From Demequina maris (GTDB taxonomy: Bacteria; Actinomycetota; Actinomycetes; Actinomycetales; Demequinaceae), in the NCBI RefSeq assembly GCF_000971155.1, contig NZ_BBLX01000005.1, positions 1 through 64,000 of the forward strand: a stretch of DNA of 64,000 bases. Direction: 5' to 3'. Position numbers and translations under genes: made by a program. Of the stretch, positions 36,725 through 48,039 are shown one piece after another. The notes beneath the pieces were generated by a model. That model had not been told where the DNA came from and ran no database searches. It saw only the letters and a list, made by a program, of their open reading frames with translations. Within the stretch, counting starts at the first letter, position 1; every line of letters begins with the position of its first letter.

Positions 36725-39259
36725 TCAGCCGTCGAACGCGATGGCCTGCAGGATGTCGAGCTTCGCCGCCCGTCGCGCGGGCCACACGGCGGCCAGCACG
36801 CCGGCCAGCGCGGCGGCGATCGTGTAGATCAGCAGCCACACCCACGGGATCGTGATGGTGGTGAAGCCGAAGTCCTCGAGCGCCCGCACGAGCGCCGCGC
36901 CGAGGCCCACGCCGAGGATCATGCCGAGGACCGTGCCGAACACGGCCATCACCATGGACTCGATGCGGATCATGCGGCGGATCGACCGGCGTCGCACGCC
37001 GACCGCCCGCAGCAGCCCGATCTCGCGGGTGCGCTCCGTCACCGACAGCAGCAGCGTGTTGGCCACGCCGAGCAGCGCGATGATGAGCGCCGCGCCGAGC
37101 ATCGCGGAGATGATCCCGAGCAGCAGGTCGATGAACTGGTTCGCGAGCTGCTCGAACTCCCCGGGCGACTGGAGCACCACGAGCGGGTAGTCGACGGCGA
37201 GCGCCTCCAGGATCTGGTCCTGCGCCGCGGTGGCGTCCACGCCCTCGTCGAGCACGACCATGGACTGCGCGATGGGGTAGTCGCCGAGCAGCTCGTGGCC
37301 GGTGTCCTCGTCCACCCACACCTGCGCGTCGCCCTCGTTGAGGTACTTGCCCGTGATGGTGAGGGTCGCCGAGCCCTCGGGGCCCTCGACCGTGATGTCG
37401 TCGCCGACCTCGAAGCCGGCCTCGACCATCGACGGGTCGATGAAGGCGCCGCCGTCCATCTGGTCGAAGTCGGGCTCGTTGTTGTAGTCGAACGCGAGGT
37501 CCGCGGTCTCGGGGTCGATCACGCCGACGTTCGTGGTGGCGCCGTCGACGAGGACCGTGCCGAGGCCGGTGGAGGTGACGTACGCGACGCCGTCCTCGCC
37601 CTCGATGACCTCGATCGCGCCCTCGGGGATCGCGCCCTGCGACGTGAACACGAAGAAGTCCGCGCTGTTGCCCTTGAACTGCTCGGTGACGAGCGACTTC
37701 ATCGACTCCGTGAAGGTCGCGACGAGCGCGAGCAGCATCACGCCGATCATCAGCGCCGCCGCGGTGTTGGCGCTGCGGCGCGGCTCACGGTGGATGTTGT
37801 TCGCCGCGAGCTTGCCGTCCACCCGGAACACCCGGGTGAGCGTCGCCTTGAGGCCGTACGCGAGCGGCACGAGCACCTGCGCCGCGAGCAGCGTCACGCC
37901 GATGATGAGGATCATCGCGCCGGCGCCCACCGGGATGTACGGCTTCTCGATGCCCAGGTAGAGGCCCGCGACGATCGCGAGCACGCCCAGCAGGGTGAGG
38001 GCGCCGCCGACGACGTTGCGCAGGCGCAGCGGCTTCTTGGACTCCGTCGCGGACTCGCGCAGCGCCTCCATCGGGGAGATGGTCGAGGCGTGGATCGCGG
38101 GCATGATCGCGGCGATGATCGTCACGAGCGCGCCGAGGCCGTAGCCCCACAGGACCGCGTCGATCGGCAACGTGACCGTGCCGAAGATGTCGCCCGAGAA
38201 GGCCTCGACGAGCGTGGACAGGCCCAGCGCGCCGAGGTAGCCGAGCGCGATGCCGATGGTCGACGAGACGACCGCGACGACGAGCGCCTCGAGCAGGATC
38301 ATCGTGCGGAGCTGGCGACCGGAGACGCCGATCGCGCGCAGCAGCCCGAACTCGCGGGTGCGCTGCGTGACGATGATGCGGAACGTGTTGACGATGATGT
38401 ACGCGCCGACGAACAGCGCGATGAGCGCGAACGCGATCGCGAAGATGTCGATGTACTGGAGCAGCTCGTCGAACTGCTCGGTCTGCTCGGCCGCCTTCGC
38501 CTCGCCGGTGATCGCGCGGGTGTCGGGCGGCAGGATCGCGCCGATCGCCTCGGCGACGGCGTCCTGGTCGGCGCCGTCCTCGACGATCACGCTGACCTGC
38601 TCGTAGCCGTCGTCGCCGTTGATCGCCGCGGAACGCGCGTCGGTCATGTAGCCGAGCGTCGCCCCCTGGAGCGAGTTGGACTCGCCGAAGCGCACGAGGC
38701 CCACGAGGGTGAACTCCTCGACGCCGGCCTCGGTCGCGACGGACACCGTGTCGCCGATGGCGTAGCCCAGGCGTGGTGCCGCGTCGAGGTCGAGCACGAT
38801 CTCGTCGTCCGCGGTGGGACCGTCGCCCTCGACCAGGGTCGCCTGATCGACGCGCGGGTCGCCGGCCCAGTTGAACAGCTGGCTCGGCGGGCCGCCGCCG
38901 GCCATCACGTCGTTGGTGGGCTCGAAGTCGGCGGCGAGGACGCTGCCCATGACCTGGCGGCCGCCCCACGCGGAGGCGACGCCGTCGACCGCGGCGACGT
39001 CCTCGACGTCGGCGTGGGAGAACAGCGACTCGGTCGCGGCGAACGGGTCCTCGTCGGCCGGGTCGGCGTCGGGGTCGGCCTCGACGATCACGTCGGTGCC
39101 CGCGTAGATCTCCTCGAACAGCTTGGTGAAGCCGCTCGAGAGCGCGTTCGTGAGGGTGAACGTGGTGGCCGCGAGCGCCACGCCGAGCGCGACCGCGACC
39201 GCCGTGAGCACCAGCCTCTTGGGGTTGTGCTTGACGGACTTGACTGCGAGCCGGAACAT
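36725..39259 (-). CDS. FtsX-like ABC transporter permease (MacB-type export/lipoprotein)
   Basis: 844-residue membrane protein with a duplicated MacB/FtsX layout: one N-terminal helix, a large extracytoplasmic domain (about 45-260), three helices, a second extracytoplasmic domain (about 500-720) and three C-terminal helices ending A-R-R-A-A-K-L-D. Each half has the R-T-R-E-[FI]-G-L-L-R-A motif that contacts the ATPase. Such systems move lipids or peptides or transduce force to cell-wall enzymes; the substrate is unknown. Start ATG 39259 touches the stop of its ATPase. Confidence 0.88.
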   Translation of the reverse strand: MFRLAVKSVKHNPKRLVLTAVAVALGVALAATTFTLTNALSSGFTKLFEEIYAGTDVIVEADPDADPADEDPFAATESLFSHADVEDVAAVDGVASAWGGRQVMGSVLAADFEPTNDVMAGGGPPSQLFNWAGDPRVDQATLVEGDGPTADDEIVLDLDAAPRLGYAIGDTVSVATEAGVEEFTLVGLVRFGESNSLQGATLGYMTDARSAAINGDDGYEQVSVIVEDGADQDAVAEAIGAILPPDTRAITGEAKAAEQTEQFDELLQYIDIFAIAFALIALFVGAYIIVNTFRIIVTQRTREFGLLRAIGVSGRQLRTMILLEALVVAVVSSTIGIALGYLGALGLSTLVEAFSGDIFGTVTLPIDAVLWGYGLGALVTIIAAIMPAIHASTISPMEALRESATESKKPLRLRNVVGGALTLLGVLAIVAGLYLGIEKPYIPVGAGAMILIIGVTLLAAQVLVPLAYGLKATLTRVFRVDGKLAANNIHREPRRSANTAAALMIGVMLLALVATFTESMKSLVTEQFKGNSADFFVFTSQGAIPEGAIEVIEGEDGVAYVTSTGLGTVLVDGATTNVGVIDPETADLAFDYNNEPDFDQMDGGAFIDPSMVEAGFEVGDDITVEGPEGSATLTITGKYLNEGDAQVWVDEDTGHELLGDYPIAQSMVVLDEGVDATAAQDQILEALAVDYPLVVLQSPGEFEQLANQFIDLLLGIISAMLGAALIIALLGVANTLLLSVTERTREIGLLRAVGVRRRSIRRMIRIESMVMAVFGTVLGMILGVGLGAALVRALEDFGFTTITIPWVWLLIYTIAAALAGVLAAVWPARRAAKLDILQAIAFDG

Positions 39260-40002
39260 CAGTGCCCCATCTGCTTCATGCGGTCGAGCACGCGGTCCGC
39301 GGTGGGCTCGCGCATCTCGTCCACGATGCGGCCGTCCGCGAGGAACAGCACGCGGTCCGAGTAGGACGCGGCGGTCGGGTCGTGCGTGACCATCACGATG
39401 GTCTGGCCGAACTCCTTGACCGCGCGGCGCATGAAGCCGAGCAGCTCCGCGCCCGAGCGCGAGTCGAGGTTGCCGGACGGCTCGTCCGCGAAGATCAGCT
39501 CGGGACGGGCGACGAGCGCGCGGGCCACCGCGACGCGCTGCTGCTGGCCGCCCGAGAGCTCGGCGGGCAGGTGCGTGAGGCGGTCGCCGAGGCCGAGGAT
39601 CGCGATGATCTCCTCGAACCACTGCGGGTCGACGTCGCGGCCCGCGATATCGAGCGGCAGGGTGATGTTCTCGCGCGCGCTGAGCGACGGGATGAGGTTG
39701 AAGGCCTGGAAGACGAAGCCGATCTTGTCGCGGCGGACCTGCGTGATCTTGTCCTCGGACAGGCCGGTGATCTGCTGCTCGCCGATCCACGACTCGCCCG
39801 CGGTGAGCCGGTCGAGACCCGCGAGGGTGTGGAGCAGGGTGGACTTGCCGGAGCCGGACGGCCCCATGATCGCGGTGAACTCGGACTGCGCGATGTCGAC
39901 GTCGAGCCCGTCGAGGGCGCGGACCGCCGCGTCGCCCGAGCCGTAGTCCTTGGTGCCGCCGCGCATGGACGCGGCGATCGTCACGGTGCTGGTGGTGGTC
40001 AT
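39259..40002 (-). CDS. ABC transporter ATP-binding protein, MacB/LolD type
   Basis: 247-residue ATPase partner of the FtsX-like permease. Walker A G-P-S-G-S-G-K-S-T, signature L-S-G-G-Q-Q-Q-R-V-A, Walker B L-I-F-A-D-E-P and the subfamily-typical S-G-N-L-D-S. ATG 40002 with AGGAACC upstream. It is first in a two-gene operon, 104 bases downstream of a NarL-type two-component system on the same strand that may control it. Confidence 0.92.
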   Translation of the reverse strand: MTTTSTVTIAASMRGGTKDYGSGDAAVRALDGLDVDIAQSEFTAIMGPSGSGKSTLLHTLAGLDRLTAGESWIGEQQITGLSEDKITQVRRDKIGFVFQAFNLIPSLSARENITLPLDIAGRDVDPQWFEEIIAILGLGDRLTHLPAELSGGQQQRVAVARALVARPELIFADEPSGNLDSRSGAELLGFMRRAVKEFGQTIVMVTHDPTAASYSDRVLFLADGRIVDEMREPTADRVLDRMKQMGH

Positions 40003-40106
40003 GGTTCCTCCCGAAGTCGATGCCTCGGTCAGTCTGGCGCGGCGGGCGCGCCCACGGCATCGTCCTCGAGGACGGTTTGTCGGGGTCCGTCTCAGGGATG
40101 ACCCTG

Positions 40107-40775
40107 CTAGGGCCGGGGCAGGACGATGCCGGAGTCGTACGCCTCGACCACGGCCTGCACGCGGTCGCGCACCCCGAGCTTGGTGAGGATGTGGCTGACG
40201 TGCGTCTTGACGGTGGTGGCGGACACGAACAGCTCGGCGGCGATCTCCTGGTTCGACAGGCCGCGTGCCATGAGCCGGAGGACCTCGACCTCCCGGTCGG
40301 ACAGGTCGCCGACCGCGTCCGCGGGCGGGTCGGCGTCCTCGACGGTGCCCGGCGAGGTGCGGGCGAACTGCTCGATCACGCGCCGCGTCACCTCGGGCGC
40401 GAGCAGCGCCTCGCCGGCCGCGACCACCCTGACCGCGGCGACGAGGGCGTCGCCGTCGACGCTCTTGAGGAGGAATCCCGAGGCGCCCGCGCGGAGGGCC
40501 TCGTAGACGTACTCGTCGTCGTCGAAGGTCGTGAGGATGACGATGCGCGTGCCGGGGTGCGCGGCGAGGACCTCGCGGGTCGCGGTGAGGCCGTCCATGC
40601 CGGGCATGCGGACGTCCATGAGGACCACGTCGGGGGAGTGCTCGGCGACGATGCGCGCCGCCTCGACGCCCGACGTCGCCTCGGCGACCACCGTGATGTC
40701 GTCCTCGGACTCGAGGATCATGCGCAGGCCCACGCGGACCATCGCCTGGTCGTCCACCAGGGCCACCCGGATCAT
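40107..40775 (-). CDS. NarL/FixJ family response regulator
   Basis: 222 residues. The receiver domain has acidic pair D8-D9 and phospho-acceptor Asp54 (L-M-D-V-R-M-P-G) and the switch Lys in F-L-L-K-S. The C-terminal LuxR-type HTH reads L-S-D-R-E-V-E-V-L and T-V-K-T-H-V-S-H-I. Start ATG 40775 overlaps the kinase stop by four bases. Likely targets are itself and the neighbouring ABC exporter, by position only. GGACGATGC lies in its last codons (40121). Confidence 0.94.
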   Translation of the reverse strand: MIRVALVDDQAMVRVGLRMILESEDDITVVAEATSGVEAARIVAEHSPDVVLMDVRMPGMDGLTATREVLAAHPGTRIVILTTFDDDEYVYEALRAGASGFLLKSVDGDALVAAVRVVAAGEALLAPEVTRRVIEQFARTSPGTVEDADPPADAVGDLSDREVEVLRLMARGLSNQEIAAELFVSATTVKTHVSHILTKLGVRDRVQAVVEAYDSGIVLPRP

Positions 40776-42007
40776 CGTCCGCCCTTCGTCGCGCTCGCGG
40801 GCCGGTTGCCCACCTGGTCGTCGCCGGACGGCAGCACCGCGCGCACGCGGAAGCCGCCTCCTGATCGAGGACCGTACTCGAGGGTGCCGCCGAGCGCGTG
40901 GACCCGCTCGGCCATGCCGCGCAGGCCGTGGCCGCCGCTCTGGCGGGCCGCGTCGGAGATCACGCCGCGACCGTCGTCCTCGACCAGCACGGTGACCTCG
41001 CTGGCCTGCCGCTCGACGCTGACGAGCGCTCGCGCGCCGGGGCCCGCGTGCTTCATCGCGTTGGTCAGCGACTCCTGGACCACCCGGTAGGCGCTCAGCT
41101 CGACGCCCGCGGGCACGTGAGCGGTGCCGGAGATGCTGAGCTCCACGGGCAGGCCCGCGTCCTCGACCTGCTGCGCGAGCCCGGGGATCGCGGCGAGCGA
41201 CGGCATGGGCTCGAGCTCCGCGGCGGCACGGTCGCGGTCCGCGGTGTCGACGGCGTCCTGCTCGGTCGCGCGGAGGACGCCGATCATGCGCTGCATCTCG
41301 GTCAGCCCCGTCCGGCCCGAGGTGGCGATCGTCTCGAGCGCCTGCGTCACGCGCGGGTCGGCGTCGCGGGCGAGGCGCCGCGCGCCCTCCGCCTGGAGCG
41401 TCATCACCGTGATCTCGTGGGCGACGACGTCGTGCAGCTCGCGCGCGATGCGGGCCCGCTCGGCGCGCACGGCATCCGCGGCGATCACCCGCTGCGCCTG
41501 CTCGCGGCGGTCCTGCGCGAGCTCGAGCTCGGTGAGGCGCTCGCGGCGGCGGTAGTCGACGAAGCCGACCATCATCGGCACCACGACCGCGAGGCTCACG
41601 GCGACGAGCGAGGTCCAGTCCACGTAGTCGGTGACCACCAGGCCGGTCGTGGTCCACACGAGCATGAGGGCGAGCACCGCGCCGCCGTGGGCGAGCGCCT
41701 GGCGGCGCGGCGTGTAGGCGGCGATGCCGTAGAGCGCGAGGTAGATCGCGAGCGACGCGGCGGTGTCGGGATAGCCGAGCCCCACGCTCGCGATCCAGGG
41801 GACGAGCACGGCCCACACGACGATGCGCGGGTAGCGCTGGCGCCACGCGAGCGGCGCCACCTGGAGCACGAGCAGCGCGTAGCCCCACGTGTCGGGCTCG
41901 CGCGCGCCGATCCCGTAGTCCGCGCTGATGCCGACGCCGATGAGGCCGAGCACCAGGAGCGACACCGCGATCGCGACATCGCCCCAACGAGGCGGTTTGA
42001 CGTCCAT
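40772..42007 (-). CDS. Sensor histidine kinase, HisKA_3 (NarX/DesK-like) type
   Basis: 411-residue membrane kinase with about five N-terminal helices (residues 10-150), a short coiled coil, the dimerisation motif R-E-L-H-D-V-V-A-H-E with the phospho-His near residue 195, and a HATPase domain with D-D-G-R-G-V and G-G-H-G-L-R-G-M. No large extracellular sensor, so it probably senses membrane state or a lipophilic compound. Start ATG 42007. Partner is the NarL-type regulator. Confidence 0.92.
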   Translation of the reverse strand: MDVKPPRWGDVAIAVSLLVLGLIGVGISADYGIGAREPDTWGYALLVLQVAPLAWRQRYPRIVVWAVLVPWIASVGLGYPDTAASLAIYLALYGIAAYTPRRQALAHGGAVLALMLVWTTTGLVVTDYVDWTSLVAVSLAVVVPMMVGFVDYRRRERLTELELAQDRREQAQRVIAADAVRAERARIARELHDVVAHEITVMTLQAEGARRLARDADPRVTQALETIATSGRTGLTEMQRMIGVLRATEQDAVDTADRDRAAAELEPMPSLAAIPGLAQQVEDAGLPVELSISGTAHVPAGVELSAYRVVQESLTNAMKHAGPGARALVSVERQASEVTVLVEDDGRGVISDAARQSGGHGLRGMAERVHALGGTLEYGPRSGGGFRVRAVLPSGDDQVGNRPASATKGGR

Positions 42008-42063
42008 CCGGCCAGCGTAGGGCGCGAGGGCGGCCGCGGCATCGTCCGCGAGGACGACCGCCG

Positions 42064-42717
42064 TCACCCGTGGAAGCGGTAGCCGACGCCGCGCACGGTC
42101 TCGATCGCGTCCGCGCCGAGGCGGGTGCGCAGGTAGCGCACGTACACGTCGAGGACGTTGTCCCGCGACGCGGATCCCCACACCGCGTCGAGCGCCTCGG
42201 CGCGGGTGACGACCCGGTCCGCGTGCTCCATCAGCAGCTGCGCGAGCTGGAGCTCGCGCGGGCTCAGCGCTACGGGCTCCCCGTCGCAGGTGAGGCTCCG
42301 GGCGACGGGGTCGAGCGCGCACCGGCCCACCCGCACGGTCGGGTCCTCGGGCGCGGCCTCGCGGGCACGGGCGCGCAGCCGGATCCGGGCGAGGAGCTCG
42401 TCGAACGAGAACGGCTTGGGCATGTAGTCGTCCGCGCCCCGCTCGAGCCCGCGGACGGTGTCCTCGGCGGAGGTGCGCGCGGTGAGGATGATGACCGGCA
42501 GGTCCGAGCCCGCCGCGCGGAGGCGTCGCAGCACCGTGAAGCCCTCCTGGTCGGGCAGCCCGATGTCGAGGATCATGAGGTCGTGGTCGCCGTCGAGCGC
42601 GGCGGCGAGACCCTCGCGGCCGGTGCGGGCGTGGTCCATGTCGATGCCGGCGGTGCGCAGCCCGTCGCGCAGCGTCGCCACGAGGCGCTGCTCGTCCTCC
42701 ACCAGCAGCACGCGCAT
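42064..42717 (-). CDS. OmpR/PhoB family response regulator
   Basis: 217 residues. Receiver acidic residues E8-D9, phospho-acceptor Asp51 (L-D-I-G-L-P), switch Lys in Y-M-P-K-P-F-S. The winged-helix output has L-S-P-R-E-L-Q-L and ends R-G-V-G-Y-R-F. ATG 42717 shares one base with the kinase stop. Expected targets are the two upstream small secreted protein genes, which share an 18-base site (44702-44719, 45003-45020). Confidence 0.94.
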   Translation of the reverse strand: MRVLLVEDEQRLVATLRDGLRTAGIDMDHARTGREGLAAALDGDHDLMILDIGLPDQEGFTVLRRLRAAGSDLPVIILTARTSAEDTVRGLERGADDYMPKPFSFDELLARIRLRARAREAAPEDPTVRVGRCALDPVARSLTCDGEPVALSPRELQLAQLLMEHADRVVTRAEALDAVWGSASRDNVLDVYVRYLRTRLGADAIETVRGVGYRFHG

Positions 42718-44120
42718 CAGGCCTCCGTCCACGGCACGCGGATCGCGAACGTCGAGCCGCGCCCGGGCATCGACTCGACCTCGAGGGTGCCGCCGTGCGC
42801 CTGGGCGATCGCGCCGACGATGGGCAGACCGAGCCCGAGCCCCTCCGCATCGGGGTCGAGGCGCACGAAGCGCTCGCGGATGCGGGCCACGTGCTCGGGC
42901 GGGATGCCGCGTCCCTCGTCGGAGACGCGCAGCACGAGGTCGGCGCCGTCGTGCACGCTCGCGAGGCGGACCTCGGACCCGTCCGCGGAGAACTTCACCG
43001 CGTTCGCCGCCAGCTGGAGCCATGCCTGGGTGAGGCGCTGGGCGTCGACCACAGCCGTCCCCTCGGCACGCGCCTCGACGCGCCACCCGCGGTCGCCGAG
43101 CGCCGCCATCCGCGTCGCGGCGGCGTCGGTGAGGTCGCCGATGTCGGCGGAACCGAGCCGGAGGAACTCCGGGCGGTCGGCCTTCGCGAGGGTCACGAGG
43201 TCCTCGACGAGCCGCGACATGTCGGCGGCCACGTCGAGGAGCTCGTCCCGGGTGGCCTCGACCTGCTCGGGGTCGCGCGGCTCGAGCAGCTCGAGGCGCG
43301 CCCGGATCACCGTGAGCGGGGTGCGGAGCTCGTGCGACGCATCGTCCAGCAGGCGCCGCTGGTCGGCGAAGGCGCCCTCGAGGCGGTCGAGCATGGCGTT
43401 GACGGTCTGCGACAGGCGTGCGAGGTCGTCGTCCCCGACGATCGGCACGCGGTCGGTGAGGTCGGACTCGCCGATGCGGCGTGCGGTGCGGTCGAGCAGG
43501 CGGATGGGCTCCATGAGGCGACCGACCGTGAGGAAGCCGACGATCCCGACCGCGGCGACGGCGAGCACCGCGACGATCGCGTACACCGTGAAGGTCGCGC
43601 GCAGGTCGCCCAGGCGGGCGCCCTCGTCGATCGCGACGGCGAAGACCGCGACGCGCGCGCCGGTCGAGTCGAGGAACGGGATCGCGGCGGTGGCGTACGA
43701 CGTGACGGGGGTGTCGATCCGCCGGACCTCGACCGCGGTCGTGGTGTCGGTCCAGAGGGCGTCGAGCAGCGCCGCATCGTCCTCGAGCCGCAGCCGGGTG
43801 TCGCTTGCGGGGGCGTAGCGGGCCCGCCCGTCGACGATGGCCACGGCGCCCTCGTCGGTGGTGCCGGTGAAGCGGGCGACGGCGTCGCGCATGAGCGTGT
43901 CGATCCCGGTGGGGTCGTTCTCCGCGATCCACCGGAGGTAGTCGTCGGCCTGCGCCGCCAGCTCGTCGGTGACGGTGCGCTCGACCACGTCGCGCTCGAT
44001 CAGGAAGGCGGTGGTGCCGGCGACCGCGAGCGAGACGGCGCTGAGGGAGACCAGGTAGATCACCACGCGGGCGCGCACGGAGCCCGCGCGGCCGCGCGAC
44101 TGCCGGGACCGTGAGTTCAT
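42717..44120 (-). CDS. Sensor histidine kinase, HisKA/OmpR-system type
   Basis: 467 residues. Two membrane helices (about 18-40 and 155-180) bracket an extracytoplasmic sensor of about 115 residues. A HAMP domain follows, then the HisKA motif D-D-A-S-H-E-L-R-T-P-L with the phospho-His, N-box A-N-A-V-K-F, D-E-G-R-G-I-P and L-G-L-G-L-P. ATG 44120 preferred; an in-frame GTG lies two codons upstream. The Asp-Asp-Ala of the HisKA motif is written with a GGACGATGC word (43339). Confidence 0.93.
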   Translation of the reverse strand: MNSRSRQSRGRAGSVRARVVIYLVSLSAVSLAVAGTTAFLIERDVVERTVTDELAAQADDYLRWIAENDPTGIDTLMRDAVARFTGTTDEGAVAIVDGRARYAPASDTRLRLEDDAALLDALWTDTTTAVEVRRIDTPVTSYATAAIPFLDSTGARVAVFAVAIDEGARLGDLRATFTVYAIVAVLAVAAVGIVGFLTVGRLMEPIRLLDRTARRIGESDLTDRVPIVGDDDLARLSQTVNAMLDRLEGAFADQRRLLDDASHELRTPLTVIRARLELLEPRDPEQVEATRDELLDVAADMSRLVEDLVTLAKADRPEFLRLGSADIGDLTDAAATRMAALGDRGWRVEARAEGTAVVDAQRLTQAWLQLAANAVKFSADGSEVRLASVHDGADLVLRVSDEGRGIPPEHVARIRERFVRLDPDAEGLGLGLPIVGAIAQAHGGTLEVESMPGRGSTFAIRVPWTEA

Positions 44121-44149
44121 CGTCACCTTCCGGCGCCACGCTACCGGGA

Positions 44150-44680
44150 TCAGTCGTCGTCGTGCTCGGTCTCGTGCGTCCCGGAGTCGTCGTCCGAGTC
44201 GTCGTGCGCGTCGTCAGAGCCGTCGTCGGTCGAGGAGCGGTCGTCGGAGCGCTCGGCGTGCTCCGCGTCGTCCGAGGAGTCGTCGTCGCCCGAGCGGGGC
44301 GCGGTGCCGAGGCGGGTGTCGCCCGGCGGCAGCGCGACGTCGTCGTCGTCCACGCCGCCCTCGTGATCGTCGTCGTGGTCGTCGTCGAGGTCGTCGACCG
44401 ACGGGCTGTGGGGCACCGTCGCGAGGACGTCGTCCGACGACCTGCCGGATCCGCTCGAGCCGCCCGAGTCGTCGCGCGAGTCGGGGGAGGAGGACGAGGA
44501 CGAGGACGTCTCGGGGGTGGAGGAGGAGCTGCTCTCGACGACGACCGCGTCGCCCACGGTGGGGTCGGGGTCCGCGTCGGAGGAGGAGCGGGCGATGGCG
44601 GTGGCGCCGACGCCCACGCCGATGAGGATCGCGGACGAGGCCGCGATGGTGGCCGCGAATCGTGCTGCTGAGGTGTTCAT
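44150..44680 (-). CDS. Acidic Ser/Asp-rich exported or membrane-anchored protein
   Basis: 176 residues, not recognised as a family. An N-terminal hydrophobic segment (about 8-30, A-A-T-I-A-A-S-S-A-I-L-I-G) acts as signal or anchor. The rest is low complexity: Ser runs (about 50-70) and Asp/His/Glu clusters, with about a third of all residues Asp or Glu. Such tails can bind cations or form a disordered surface spacer. It lies directly upstream of the OmpR-type kinase on the same strand and has the shared operator (44702-44719) before it. Metal or cation sensing is speculation. Confidence 0.65.
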   Translation of the reverse strand: MNTSAARFAATIAASSAILIGVGVGATAIARSSSDADPDPTVGDAVVVESSSSSTPETSSSSSSSPDSRDDSGGSSGSGRSSDDVLATVPHSPSVDDLDDDHDDDHEGGVDDDDVALPPGDTRLGTAPRSGDDDSSDDAEHAERSDDRSSTDDGSDDAHDDSDDDSGTHETEHDDD

Positions 44681-44701
44681 GACCCCAGGATCGTCCGCGG
44701 C

Positions 44702-44719
44702 CTCTGAGAGTCCTCTCAG
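44702..44719 (-). promoter_or_regulatory. Shared operator, copy A
   Basis: Minus strand CTGAGAGGACTCTCAGAG. It matches copy B (45003-45020) at 14 of 18 bases and contains an 8-bp inverted repeat. It lies about 25 bases before the ATG of the acidic protein gene. Candidate site of the adjacent OmpR-type regulator. Confidence 0.55.
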
Positions 44720-44970
44720 ACGGCCGGCTCGTCCTCGTCGTCGCGGCCCTTGCGCACCGTGACGTCCTGCGTGGGCATCACCGCGGGCAGGTCGACGGGC
44801 GGGCGCAGCGAGTGCGGCGGATCGTCGCGGTCGGCGGGCGTGCTGGCCGGCGCATCGTCCTCCGCGCCGAGGGAGGCGCGCGGGGTCGCCCCCGCGGCGG
44901 ACGCGGCGCCCACGAGGAGCGAGCCGGCGGCGAGGAACGTCACGGCGAGGCGGGTGGCGGTGTGCTTCAT
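44716..44970 (-). CDS. Small secreted acidic protein
   Basis: 84 residues. Signal peptide with hydrophobic V-T-F-L-A-A-G-S-L-L-V-G and cleavage region A-S-A-A-G-A near residue 28. The mature part is Pro/Asp-rich with a basic-acidic C-terminus (R-K-G-R-D-D-E-D-E). Family not recognised. Same operon direction as the acidic Ser/Asp protein and kinase, with its own copy of the operator upstream (45003-45020). Confidence 0.6.
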   Translation of the reverse strand: MKHTATRLAVTFLAAGSLLVGAASAAGATPRASLGAEDDAPASTPADRDDPPHSLRPPVDLPAVMPTQDVTVRKGRDDEDEPAV

Positions 44971-45002
44971 GACGTCAGCATGCGTCCCGGACCCTGGGAG
45001 CC

Positions 45003-45020
45003 CGCCGAGAGCCCGCTCAG
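45003..45020 (-). promoter_or_regulatory. Shared operator, copy B
   Basis: Minus strand CTGAGCGGGCTCTCGGCG, about 35 bases before the small secreted protein ATG and 10 bases past the ABC permease stop. Counterpart of 44702-44719. Confidence 0.5.
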
Positions 45021-45029
45021 GGGCGGCTG

Positions 45030-45848
45030 TCAGTTGTCGTCGTGGCGCGTCCAGCGGAACGTGCGCACCGCGAGCACGAGCCCCACGATCACCCAGATCG
45101 TCAGCACGATCGCGGTCGCGGGGTGCTGCCACGAGCCGTTGACCTCGGCGGACTCGAAGCTCTCCGGGAGGAACACCGAGCGCATGCCCTGCGCGAGCCA
45201 CTTGAGCGGGAAGATCGCCGCGACGTGCTGGAGGAACGTGGGGATCTGCGTGTAGACGAGGAAGACGCCCGACGTGAACTGCAGGAACAGCACGATCGGC
45301 GTGATGATCGCCGAGCCCGCCTTCGCGTTGCGCAGCAGCGAGGACATCGCGATGCCGAGGGTCGTGGACGCGGCGGTGCCGAGCAGGAACACCCACGTGA
45401 ACGTCCACCAGCCGGAGCCGGACGGCAGCGTCGCGTCGTACATCACGACGCCGATCGCGACGAGCGCGGCGACCTGGACCACCGAGACGATGAGCACCTG
45501 CGCGACCTTCGCCGCGAAGAACGCGGTGGGCGGCAGCGGCGTGCCGTGGACGCGCTTGAGCACGTCCTCGTCGCGATCGATCGCGATCGACATCGCGAGC
45601 GACTGGAAGCCGGTGTTGAGGATGCCGGAGGCGACCATGCCGGGCAGGAAGTACGCCGCGAAGGTCACGCCGGGGGCGATCTCCTGCCCGCCGAACACCG
45701 AGCCGAACAGCACCAGCAGCATCATCGGGAAGAAGAAGATGAAGACCATCTGCTCGCGGCTGCGCAGGAACTCCTTGAGCTCGACCACGAGCCGGCTGCG
45801 GGTCATCGAGGTCCACGTGGGCGCGGACGATGCGGTGACGGCGGTCAT
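45030..45848 (-). CDS. ABC-2 type transporter permease
   Basis: 272-residue exporter membrane subunit with six helices in the usual ABC-2 spacing, starting near F-F-F-P-M-M-L-L-V-L-F-G (about 38) and ending in a helix before R-T-F-R-W-T-R. Overlaps its ATPase gene by four bases. Substrate unknown; drugs, lipids or polysaccharide are typical. Its N-terminal Ala-Ser-Ser is encoded by a GGACGATGC word on the opposite strand (45825). Confidence 0.9.
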   Translation of the reverse strand: MTAVTASSAPTWTSMTRSRLVVELKEFLRSREQMVFIFFFPMMLLVLFGSVFGGQEIAPGVTFAAYFLPGMVASGILNTGFQSLAMSIAIDRDEDVLKRVHGTPLPPTAFFAAKVAQVLIVSVVQVAALVAIGVVMYDATLPSGSGWWTFTWVFLLGTAASTTLGIAMSSLLRNAKAGSAIITPIVLFLQFTSGVFLVYTQIPTFLQHVAAIFPLKWLAQGMRSVFLPESFESAEVNGSWQHPATAIVLTIWVIVGLVLAVRTFRWTRHDDN

Positions 45849-46720
45849 GCCTGGGCCTCCTCGGTCTCGCGGGCGGCGCTCGCGGCGTCGTCGATGAGCT
45901 GGAGGTAGACGTCCTCGAGGGACGGATGGACCACCTCGAGCCCCGCGATCTCGCCGTCGTGGCGCGCGAGCAGGTCGCGCAGCAGCGCGGTGGGCGTCGC
46001 GGTCTCCTCCACGCGCCGCGTGCCTCCCTCGGTCCAGGTCACGCGCGCGGCGGACGCGCGCGAGCGGAGGCCGGCGGGGGTGTCGAGCGCGACCATGCGG
46101 CCCGCGGCGATGATGCCGATGCGGTCGGCCAGGTGGTCGGCCTCGTCGAGGTAGTGCGTGGTGAGCAGGATCGTGGTGCCGTCGCCCCGCAGCCCGTCGA
46201 TGAGGGTCCAGAACTGGCGGCGCGCCTCGGGGTCGAATCCCGTGGTGGGCTCGTCGAGGAACACCAGCTCGGGCCGGCCGATCACCGCGAGCGCGACGTC
46301 GAGGCGGCGGCGCTGGCCGCCCGACAGGGTCGCGGGCTTGGCGCCGGCCTTCTCGGTGAGGCCCACGGCGTCGAGCGTCTCGTCGACGTCGCGGGGGTCG
46401 GGGTAGAGGCTCGCGGCGTAGCGCAGCGATTCGGCGGCCGTGAGGGCGCCGTGCTCGGACGTGCCCTGGAGCATCACGCCCACGCGGGTGCGCCAGTGCC
46501 GGGGCGCGTGCTGCGGGTCCGCGCCGAGCACGGTGACGTCGCCCGCCGTGCGCTTGCGGAAGCCCTCGAGGATCTCGACGGTGGTGGACTTGCCCGCGCC
46601 GTTCGGGCCCAGCAGCGCGAACACCTCGCCCGTCGGGATCTCGAGGTCGATGCCGTCGACGGCGTGCAGGTCGCCGTAGTGCTTGTGCAGCCCCGCGATG
46701 GAGATGGCCGGTTCGGTCAT
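45845..46720 (-). CDS. ABC transporter ATP-binding protein (DrrA/NatA-like)
   Basis: 291-residue ATPase of the ABC-2 exporter. Walker A G-P-N-G-A-G-K-S-T, signature L-S-G-G-Q-R-R-R-L-D, Walker B L-V-F-L-D-E-P-T-T-G-F-D, then H-Y-L-D-E-A. The C-terminal extension (about 220-291) is usual for this group. ATG 46720 is chosen at the family start; in-frame extension upstream runs into a terminator. Confidence 0.93.
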   Translation of the reverse strand: MTEPAISIAGLHKHYGDLHAVDGIDLEIPTGEVFALLGPNGAGKSTTVEILEGFRKRTAGDVTVLGADPQHAPRHWRTRVGVMLQGTSEHGALTAAESLRYAASLYPDPRDVDETLDAVGLTEKAGAKPATLSGGQRRRLDVALAVIGRPELVFLDEPTTGFDPEARRQFWTLIDGLRGDGTTILLTTHYLDEADHLADRIGIIAAGRMVALDTPAGLRSRASAARVTWTEGGTRRVEETATPTALLRDLLARHDGEIAGLEVVHPSLEDVYLQLIDDAASAARETEEAQA

Positions 46721-46768
46721 GCCGTCGAGCCTAGCCACGCATCGTCGCTGGTGCCTCGTCCGGACGAC

Positions 46769-46808
46769 GGAAGGCCCGCATCGTCCGCGGGGACGATGCG
46801 GGCCTTCC
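46769..46808 (-). terminator. Terminator after the aminotransferase, built from two GGACGATGC words
   Basis: Perfect 18-bp stem: 46769-46786 pairs with 46791-46808, loop GCGG. The central nine pairs of each arm next to the loop are GCATCGTCC and GGACGATGC. It lies 20 bases past the aminotransferase stop. Confidence 0.9.
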
Positions 46809-46827
46809 GGTCGCTTCTCGGGTGCGC

Positions 46828-48039
46828 CTATTGCGCGAGCAGCCTCTGGATGCGGGTGACGCCCTCGACGAGGTCGTCGTCGCCGAGCGCGTAGCTGAGG
46901 CGCAGGAAGCCGGACGGGCCGAAGGCCTCGCCGGGCACCACGGCCACCTCGGCCTGCTCGAGGATCACGGTGGCGAGGTCCGCGGACGACGTGATCTCGA
47001 CGCCGCCGACGGTGCGGCCGATGAGGCCCTCGACCGACGGGTACGCGTAGAACGCGCCCTTCGGGGTGGGGCACACGACGCCGTCGATCGCGCGGAGCAT
47101 GTCGACCATCGTGCGGCGGCGGCGGTCGAAGGCCTCGCGCATCTCGTGGACCTCCTCGAGGCCGCCCTCGAGGGCCGCGATCGCGGCACGCTGGCTGACG
47201 TTCGCGACGTTGCTCGTGAGGTGGCTCTGGAAGTTGGAGGCCGCCTTGGTGACGTCGGCGGGCGCGATCATCCATCCCACGCGCCAGCCGGTCATGGCGT
47301 AGGTCTTGGCGACGCCGTTGACGACGATGCACTGGTCGGCGAGCTCGGGCACCGCGCGGACGATCGGGGTGAAGACCGCGTCGTCGTAGAGGAGGTGCTC
47401 GTAGATCTCGTCGGTGATCACCCAGATGCCGTGCTCGACGGCCCACTCGCCGATCGCCTTGGTCTGCTCGGGGGAGTAGACCGCGCCGGTCGGGTTCGAG
47501 GGGCTGCAGAACAGCAGCGCCTTGGTCTTGTCGGTGCGGGCGGCCTCGAGCTGCTCGACCGTGACGAGGTAGCCCTGGTCGGCGCCGGCGAAGACCTCGA
47601 CCGGGGTGCCGCCGGCGAGCGAGATCGCCTCGGGGTAGGTGGTCCAGTACGGCGCGGGGAGGAGGACCTCGTCGCCCGGGTCGACGATGCTGGCGAAGGC
47701 CTGGAACACGGCCTGCTTGCCGCCGTTGGTCACCACGACGTTGGCGGGGTCGACCTCGTAGCCGGAGTCGCGCAGCGTCTTCGCGGCGATGGCCTTCTTG
47801 AGCTCGGGCAGGCCCGTCGCGGGCGTGTAGCGGTGGTTCTTGGGGTCGTGCACGGCCGCCGCGGCGGCGTCCACGATGAACTCCGGTGTCGGGAAGTCGG
47901 GCTCGCCGGCGCCGAACCCGATGACGGGGCGGCCGGCGGCCTTCAGCGCCTTCGCCTTCGAGTCGACGGCGAGGGTGGCGGACGGCGCGATGGCGCCGAG
48001 GCGGGCAGAGACGCGGCGGGCGGGCTTCATGGGGGTCAT
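46828..48039 (-). CDS. Pyridoxal-phosphate aminotransferase, aspartate aminotransferase type
   Basis: 403-residue fold-type I enzyme (class I/II). Marks are G-A-G-E-P-D-F-P-T near residue 43, N-G-G-K-Q-A for the phosphate, S-P-S-N-P-T-G, D-E-I-Y-E-H for the cofactor Asp, and [11 protein letters not shown] with the Schiff-base Lys near 245. Aspartate:2-oxoglutarate is the expected reaction. Its place upstream of tRNA-Trp and secE is common in actinobacteria. A single transcript with its own terminator. Confidence 0.93.

Follow-up and report, generated by a model that had tools for sequence, protein, structure and literature searches.

The OmpR-type response regulator encoded on the minus strand of the Demequina maris window (the whole 64,000-nucleotide stretch analysed here) probably activates its own operon directly, a reading to which we assign a probability of about 0.8, through an operator made of five-base half-sites. 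In the predicted mechanism, the regulator (42064-42717) would bind head-to-tail, CTNAG-like half-sites with an 11-bp step in the place of a -35 element, and the bound protein would switch on a leaderless promoter that opens a gene 2-kinase-regulator operon, with positive autoregulation of that operon as the outcome. A weaker operator of three half-sites would bring in gene 1, while in relatives the regulator would activate a few other genes and, in one subclade, also a structured RNA of ~95 nt. The minus-strand order of the locus is ABC ATPase, ABC-2 permease, gene 1, gene 2, sensor kinase and OmpR-type regulator, with the following features.

45845-46780, minus strand: ABC transporter ATPase (start approximate)
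45030-45848, minus strand: ABC-2 permease, upstream of gene 1
44994-45020, minus strand: gene 1 operator, CTGAG-N6-CTCGG-N6-CCCAG, three half-sites with an 11-bp period, the last 23 nt before the ATG
44977-44982, minus strand: predicted gene 1 -10 hexamer, CATGCT, with the same geometry as at gene 2
44716-44970, minus strand: gene 1, a small, probably exported, acidic protein of 84 aa (pI 4.68)
44704-44719, minus strand: gene 2 operator, CTGAG-N6-CTCAG, the sole perfect operator plus -10 match in the genome, with counterparts in 26/26 genomes carrying the regulator
44687-44692, minus strand: predicted gene 2 -10 hexamer, GATCCT, 11 nt after CTCAG and 6 nt before the ATG
44150-44680, minus strand: gene 2, a probably exported, Asp/Ser/His-rich, acidic protein of 176 aa (pI 4.05)
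42717-44120, minus strand: sensor histidine kinase with HAMP, HisKA and HATPase_c domains and a predicted extracytoplasmic Cache/PAS-like domain
42064-42717, minus strand: OmpR-type response regulator with Response_reg and Trans_reg_C domains

Gene 2 is the conserved neighbour of the kinase-regulator pair. Of 12 genomes read, 11 have the ABC-2 permease at the locus, G011 being the exception. Neither small protein matched Pfam at E 0.001 or showed homology to a described accessory protein family, and their export was judged by eye from the N-terminal segments. Directly downstream of the OmpR-type pair, on the same strand, lies a second two-component system, a kinase with a LuxR-type regulator (window 40107-42010). 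A search of window positions 39000-47500 against Rfam gave no matches.

A sequence-only reading of this DNA had proposed that two similar 18-mers form a shared operator before two genes for acidic exported proteins, beside a two-component system. Both 18-mers are present on the minus strand (44702-44719 and 45003-45020) and are identical at 14 of 18 positions; the two open reading frames are followed on the same strand by the kinase and the OmpR-type regulator, and both small proteins are acidic. The distance from 18-mer to ATG, given as 25-35 bases, is 21 and 32 bases from the coordinates. The motif itself is real, with CTGAG-N6-CTCAG at gene 2 as its unit, but the gene 1 copy had been paired one 11-bp repeat out of register, since gene 1 has three half-sites at 11-bp steps and it is the last of them (CCCAG, not CTCGG) that occupies the canonical place. 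The gene 1 half-sites are weaker than those of gene 2. Similarity of the 18-mers within the window is on its own poor evidence: the joint pattern (up to three mismatches) had six matches against 2.49 expected, and 6 of 100 shuffles reached six. What places the site above chance is its conservation in all 26 regulator-carrying genomes at nearly fixed geometry.

That conservation was followed through 44 genomes of the genus, comprising 26 that carry an orthologue of the regulator (64-100% identity) and 18 non-carriers, among them G020; another two of the 44 match only through a sister paralogue. The scan of relatives suggested by the earlier reading located a site in every carrier, where it precedes a gene that lies upstream of the kinase and encodes a small, probably exported protein. 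The exact sequence CTGAG-N6-CTCAG is present in 24 of the 26, and the distal half-site is imperfect in the other two, G005 having one mismatch and G041 reading CTGAG-N6-ATAAG-N6-CTCAG; the half-sites are 11 bp apart in all 26. Three-half-site layouts also occur in G041 and G050. The gap from CTCAG to ATG is 23 nt in 16 carriers, 24 nt in nine and 25 nt in one. An alignment of the 26 promoters showed no variation in the proximal CTCAG or in the A and T of an nAnnnT hexamer, the putative -10 element, which lies 11 nt downstream of CTCAG in each of them. Conservation extends to the distal half-site, to a single base flanking each half-site on either side and to the start codon; most of the N6 spacer and the flanks are variable. 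From this arrangement the gene 2 promoter would be leaderless, with transcription predicted to start at the A of the ATG or at most two bases away.

Gene 1 is an extra: together with its operator it was seen in G000, G023, G046 and G049, and the second small genes of G041 and G001 are different ones. These second small genes were left out of the site count, as were near sites inside the permease gene (G040, G055, G010, G051, G042), one site before the kinase (G055) and alternative registers (G041, G050). In two loci, L033 (G004) and L111 (G047), a second perfect site lies ~300-370 bp further upstream than that of the small gene and has no obvious gene of its own. At L119 (G042) the kinase and regulator frames are interrupted, with two TGA codons in the regulator and a kinase frame that is only short; this genome is rated 50% complete, and the frame breaks reflect either sequencing error or decay.

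G020 is a natural loss of the system. Only approximately residues 120-217 of the regulator remain there, a 10-kb stretch contains no match to the kinase or small gene and no site with one mismatch or fewer, and the strict site is absent from the whole genome. A LuxR pair also adjoins this truncated regulator.

The operator also changes with the regulator. In a tree of 54 regulators, those of the 26 carriers form one clade (100/98), opposite 22 sister sequences from Demequina paralogues, Georgenia, Oceanitalea and others, which are grouped with weak support (82/70). The scan of the sister loci reached as far as 4.2 kb upstream of the regulator start and 3.6 kb downstream of it, contig permitting. 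Within this stretch CTGAG-N6-CTCAG was found in none of the 22, while ATGAG-N6-CTCAT was found in 17, not always beside a small gene; neither site was found in five, two of which are cut by the contig end. Thus, the outer base of the site follows the regulator clade, which indicates that operator and regulator change together. The putative recognition helix, NVLDVYxRYLR against NVVDVYVRYLR, hardly differs between the two clades, which fits the TGAG-N6-CTCA core that their sites share. We examined 13 sister sites, from 13 of the 22 loci, that lie 0.7-1.5 kb downstream of the regulator. The number of bases matching CTCA averages 2.77 of 4 at +11 and 3.62 of 4 at +22, with a mean over 44 offsets of 1.05; sister operators would often consist of up to four half-sites at 11-bp steps. 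G029 is off-pattern, and G025 and G032 have mixed sites.

Strict sites elsewhere led, in 14 genomes that all carry the regulator, to an RNA element of ~95 nt located upstream of tyrS (L051:3308-3403 and 13 further loci). Each of the 14 promoters reads CTGAG-N6-CTCAG-N11-TANNNT-(6-8 nt)-GTCGCTGG, where TANNNT is the putative -10. A covariance model of the 14 copies, searched in the 44 genomes, returned the same 14 genomes and no others; because the copies had been found through the site, the independent result here is that no RNA copy without a site was recovered. The RNA is present in 14/26 carriers versus 0/18 non-carriers (Fisher test, p 0.00014), but the RNA genomes form one clade of the regulator tree, so that the co-occurrence amounts to about one event and we do not take the test as proof. 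Among 297 genomes sampled from the order, the RNA was found in 12, all of this genus.

In the structure named for this RNA, 97.8% of pairs are standard and five pairs are changed on both sides. Its covariation score is above that of 500/500 shuffles; five both-side-changed pairs were reached by 16/500 shuffles, and the number of further pair types by 490/500. RNAalifold preferred another inner part, with four both-side-changed pairs, and a 15-pair outer stem is common to both structures. A conserved ACCCCTCAGC stretch is unpaired in the named structure, and a pyrimidine-rich tail comes after several of the copies. An Rfam search of six of the 14 loci, with E values up to 5, gave no match at the RNA. 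The element is probably a new, structured RNA, and the resemblance of its promoter to that of the small gene suggests control by the regulator.

Across the genus we counted 57 strict sites, of which 25 are at the locus (in 23 of the 26 carriers), 29 are elsewhere in carriers and three are in the 18 non-carriers. An off-locus strict site is present in 19/26 carriers versus 3/18 non-carriers (p 0.0005); with the RNA promoters removed, the comparison becomes 11/26 versus 3/18 (p 0.10). RNA promoters account for 14 of the 29 off-locus sites in carriers. Four of the 15 others combine a -10 at N11 with a start codon at 24-25 nt, and they precede an uncharacterised gene in G008, G010 and G055 and a DedA/VTT gene in G054. 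The uncharacterised gene (MGHVLHVW...) has a predicted leaderless operator promoter in three genomes (L133:2594-3022, L056 and L061), and its L133 copy had no Pfam match. Two acyltransferase genes (G015, G042) start at 24 nt and have no -10 at N11. Ferric-reductase (G004, G047, G057) and recombinase-like (G004, G047) neighbours were rejected as targets, having neither a -10 nor a start at the right distance, and the remaining four sites were unconvincing. Neighbouring genes were called with a simple GC3-based script; the DedA/VTT, acyltransferase, uncharacterised-gene and ferric-reductase assignments rest on Pfam searches of one example each, and the other labels were given by eye.

In the genome of the window, YCTGAGN6CTCAGR occurs once, as it does in G023 and in G011, always at this locus, and the full promoter pattern including the -10 is matched perfectly only at 44687-44719 in the 2.97 Mb of its 22 contigs. 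Near matches to the promoter (two mismatches or fewer) numbered 28, compared with 35 in a reversed control; since they do not exceed the control, no regulon beyond the locus can be claimed in this genome. A wider regulon there was rejected on these counts, and two places with one mismatch were unconvincing.

The main output of the system may be the exported low-complexity proteins, whose site of action could be the cell surface or the sensor. The small proteins of 25 of the 26 carriers have pI values of 4.05-4.96; the G042 value of 5.02 is unreliable, as the reading runs through the frame problem. One putative role, to which we give close to an even chance, is that of effectors rather than regulators, perhaps as surface binders of cations or cationic peptides. 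The low pI values agree with this role, an ABC-2 transporter adjoins the locus, and two other candidate targets encode DedA/VTT and acyltransferase membrane proteins; speaking against it, the charge is not common to all sister systems, one Georgenia protein having 6% Asp+Glu. At least 11 of the 22 sister loci contain a small gene whose low-complexity product begins with a hydrophobic segment, and what these products have in common is that N-terminal segment and the low-complexity tail.

The sequence-only reading had favoured another putative role, in which the sensor domain of the kinase receives feedback from the exported acidic proteins. This would add to the regulatory model and not replace it, and we consider it rather unlikely. 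The predicted structure of the sensor domain (pLDDT 91.8) gave Z scores of 9.3-9.4 to WalK sensor crystal structures and 9.2 to KinD in a fold search, with many other Cache domains at Z 7-9, so the model resembles extracytoplasmic Cache/PAS domains such as those of WalK and KinD. In keeping with feedback, a small protein of exported type (as judged by eye) is encoded beside the kinase in the carriers, and in the 26-row alignment the average likeness is 43% over the N-terminal 34 residues compared with 24% for the rest. However, neither sequence nor structure gave a sign of contact between sensor and small protein, and the tails diverge widely and are not acidic in every sister system.

Direct control by the adjacent regulator, the simplest model of the earlier reading, is well supported by the comparative sequence data on several counts: the site accompanies the regulator in all carriers, its outer base tracks the clade, the half-sites follow 11-bp steps, the same promoter precedes the RNA in regulator carriers only, and the strict site is missing from G020, where a regulator remnant persists. 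The receiver and Trans_reg_C domains are those of an OmpR/PhoB-type protein, the 11-bp half-site steps agree with the 10-11 bp of that type, and the operator occupies the -35 place, 11 nt from the putative -10, at 26/26 small-gene and 14/14 RNA promoters. The main rival is that the regulator binds there and represses, the operator covering the -35 region and blocking polymerase until a signal arrives. Such an overlap with the place of the -35 box is what we observe, but the 26 aligned promoters contain no conserved -35 hexamer apart from the operator. A half-site that ends 11 nt before the -10 is the layout of PhoB-type activation, and this layout recurs at the small-gene and RNA promoters and at four of the 15 other off-locus sites, which makes repression improbable. 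CTGAG-N6-CTCAG can also be read as a palindrome, so that another dimeric regulator, unlinked to the locus, is conceivable, with the two-component system as one of its targets; some strict sites do lie near unrelated genes. Against this stand the tracking of the adjacent regulator's clade by the presence and outer base of the site, the scarcity of strict sites in non-carriers (18 genomes have three, all of them lacking a -10 at the set distance) and the tandem 11-bp array of the sister sites, which is not a simple palindrome, and we regard an unlinked regulator as a long shot. That the repeat is a hairpin, a terminator or chance, as the near-perfect dyad at gene 2 and the weak within-window statistic might suggest, is scarcely credible given its conservation in 26/26 carriers, the near-fixed distance to the -10 and ATG and the free spacer.

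The preferred reading, direct activation, has parallels in known systems. At E. coli promoters activated by PhoB, the operator lies just upstream of the -10. The Demequina operator is likewise placed and shares 11-nt direct repeat units with the PHO box of Streptomyces (PMC6988585). Its sequence differs, and no phosphate genes are among the targets seen. The Streptomyces AfsQ1 site, GTnAC-n6-GTnAC, is similar in having two five-base half-sites, six free bases between them and an 11-bp step (PMC6988585). The Demequina half-sites are CTNAG (CTGAG/CTCAG), not GTNAC, and the targets are others. CpxP-CpxA is a case of a kinase with an accessory extracytoplasmic protein. HbpS-SenS-SenR is another (PMC4991794), and in both, as in Demequina, where export was called by eye, a small exported protein accompanies the kinase. 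Unlike these, the Demequina protein is of low complexity and without a Pfam match, and its action on the sensor is putative. Mcr7 of Mycobacterium tuberculosis is a PhoP-dependent RNA (PMC4038636) and resembles the predicted Demequina control in that a response regulator drives a small RNA in an actinobacterium; the ~95-nt Demequina RNA lacks an Rfam family at the six loci searched. Among the papers listed by literature searches, some of them run with the letters of the motif, none dealt with the motif or with Demequina signalling, which is no proof of absence in print.

On a broader and more tentative view, which we think less likely than its opposite, these loci would represent a module found across several actinobacterial families, in which an OmpR-type pair and an operator with an 11-bp step are combined with an exported, probably disordered low-complexity partner that tunes or reports on the sensor; regulator and operator would co-diverge into insulated paralogues, and in one Demequina subclade the module would extend to a dedicated structured RNA. 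For an uncharacterised two-component family, the analysis supplies an operator that can be tested and a predicted output, to which one clade adds a new RNA. The shared operator offers a way to find the exported low-complexity proteins, which matched no family model. Moreover, two paralogous regulators, sometimes in one genome, are paired with operators distinct in their outer base pair and in half-site number, and the system is thus a case for how two-component pairs stay insulated after duplication.
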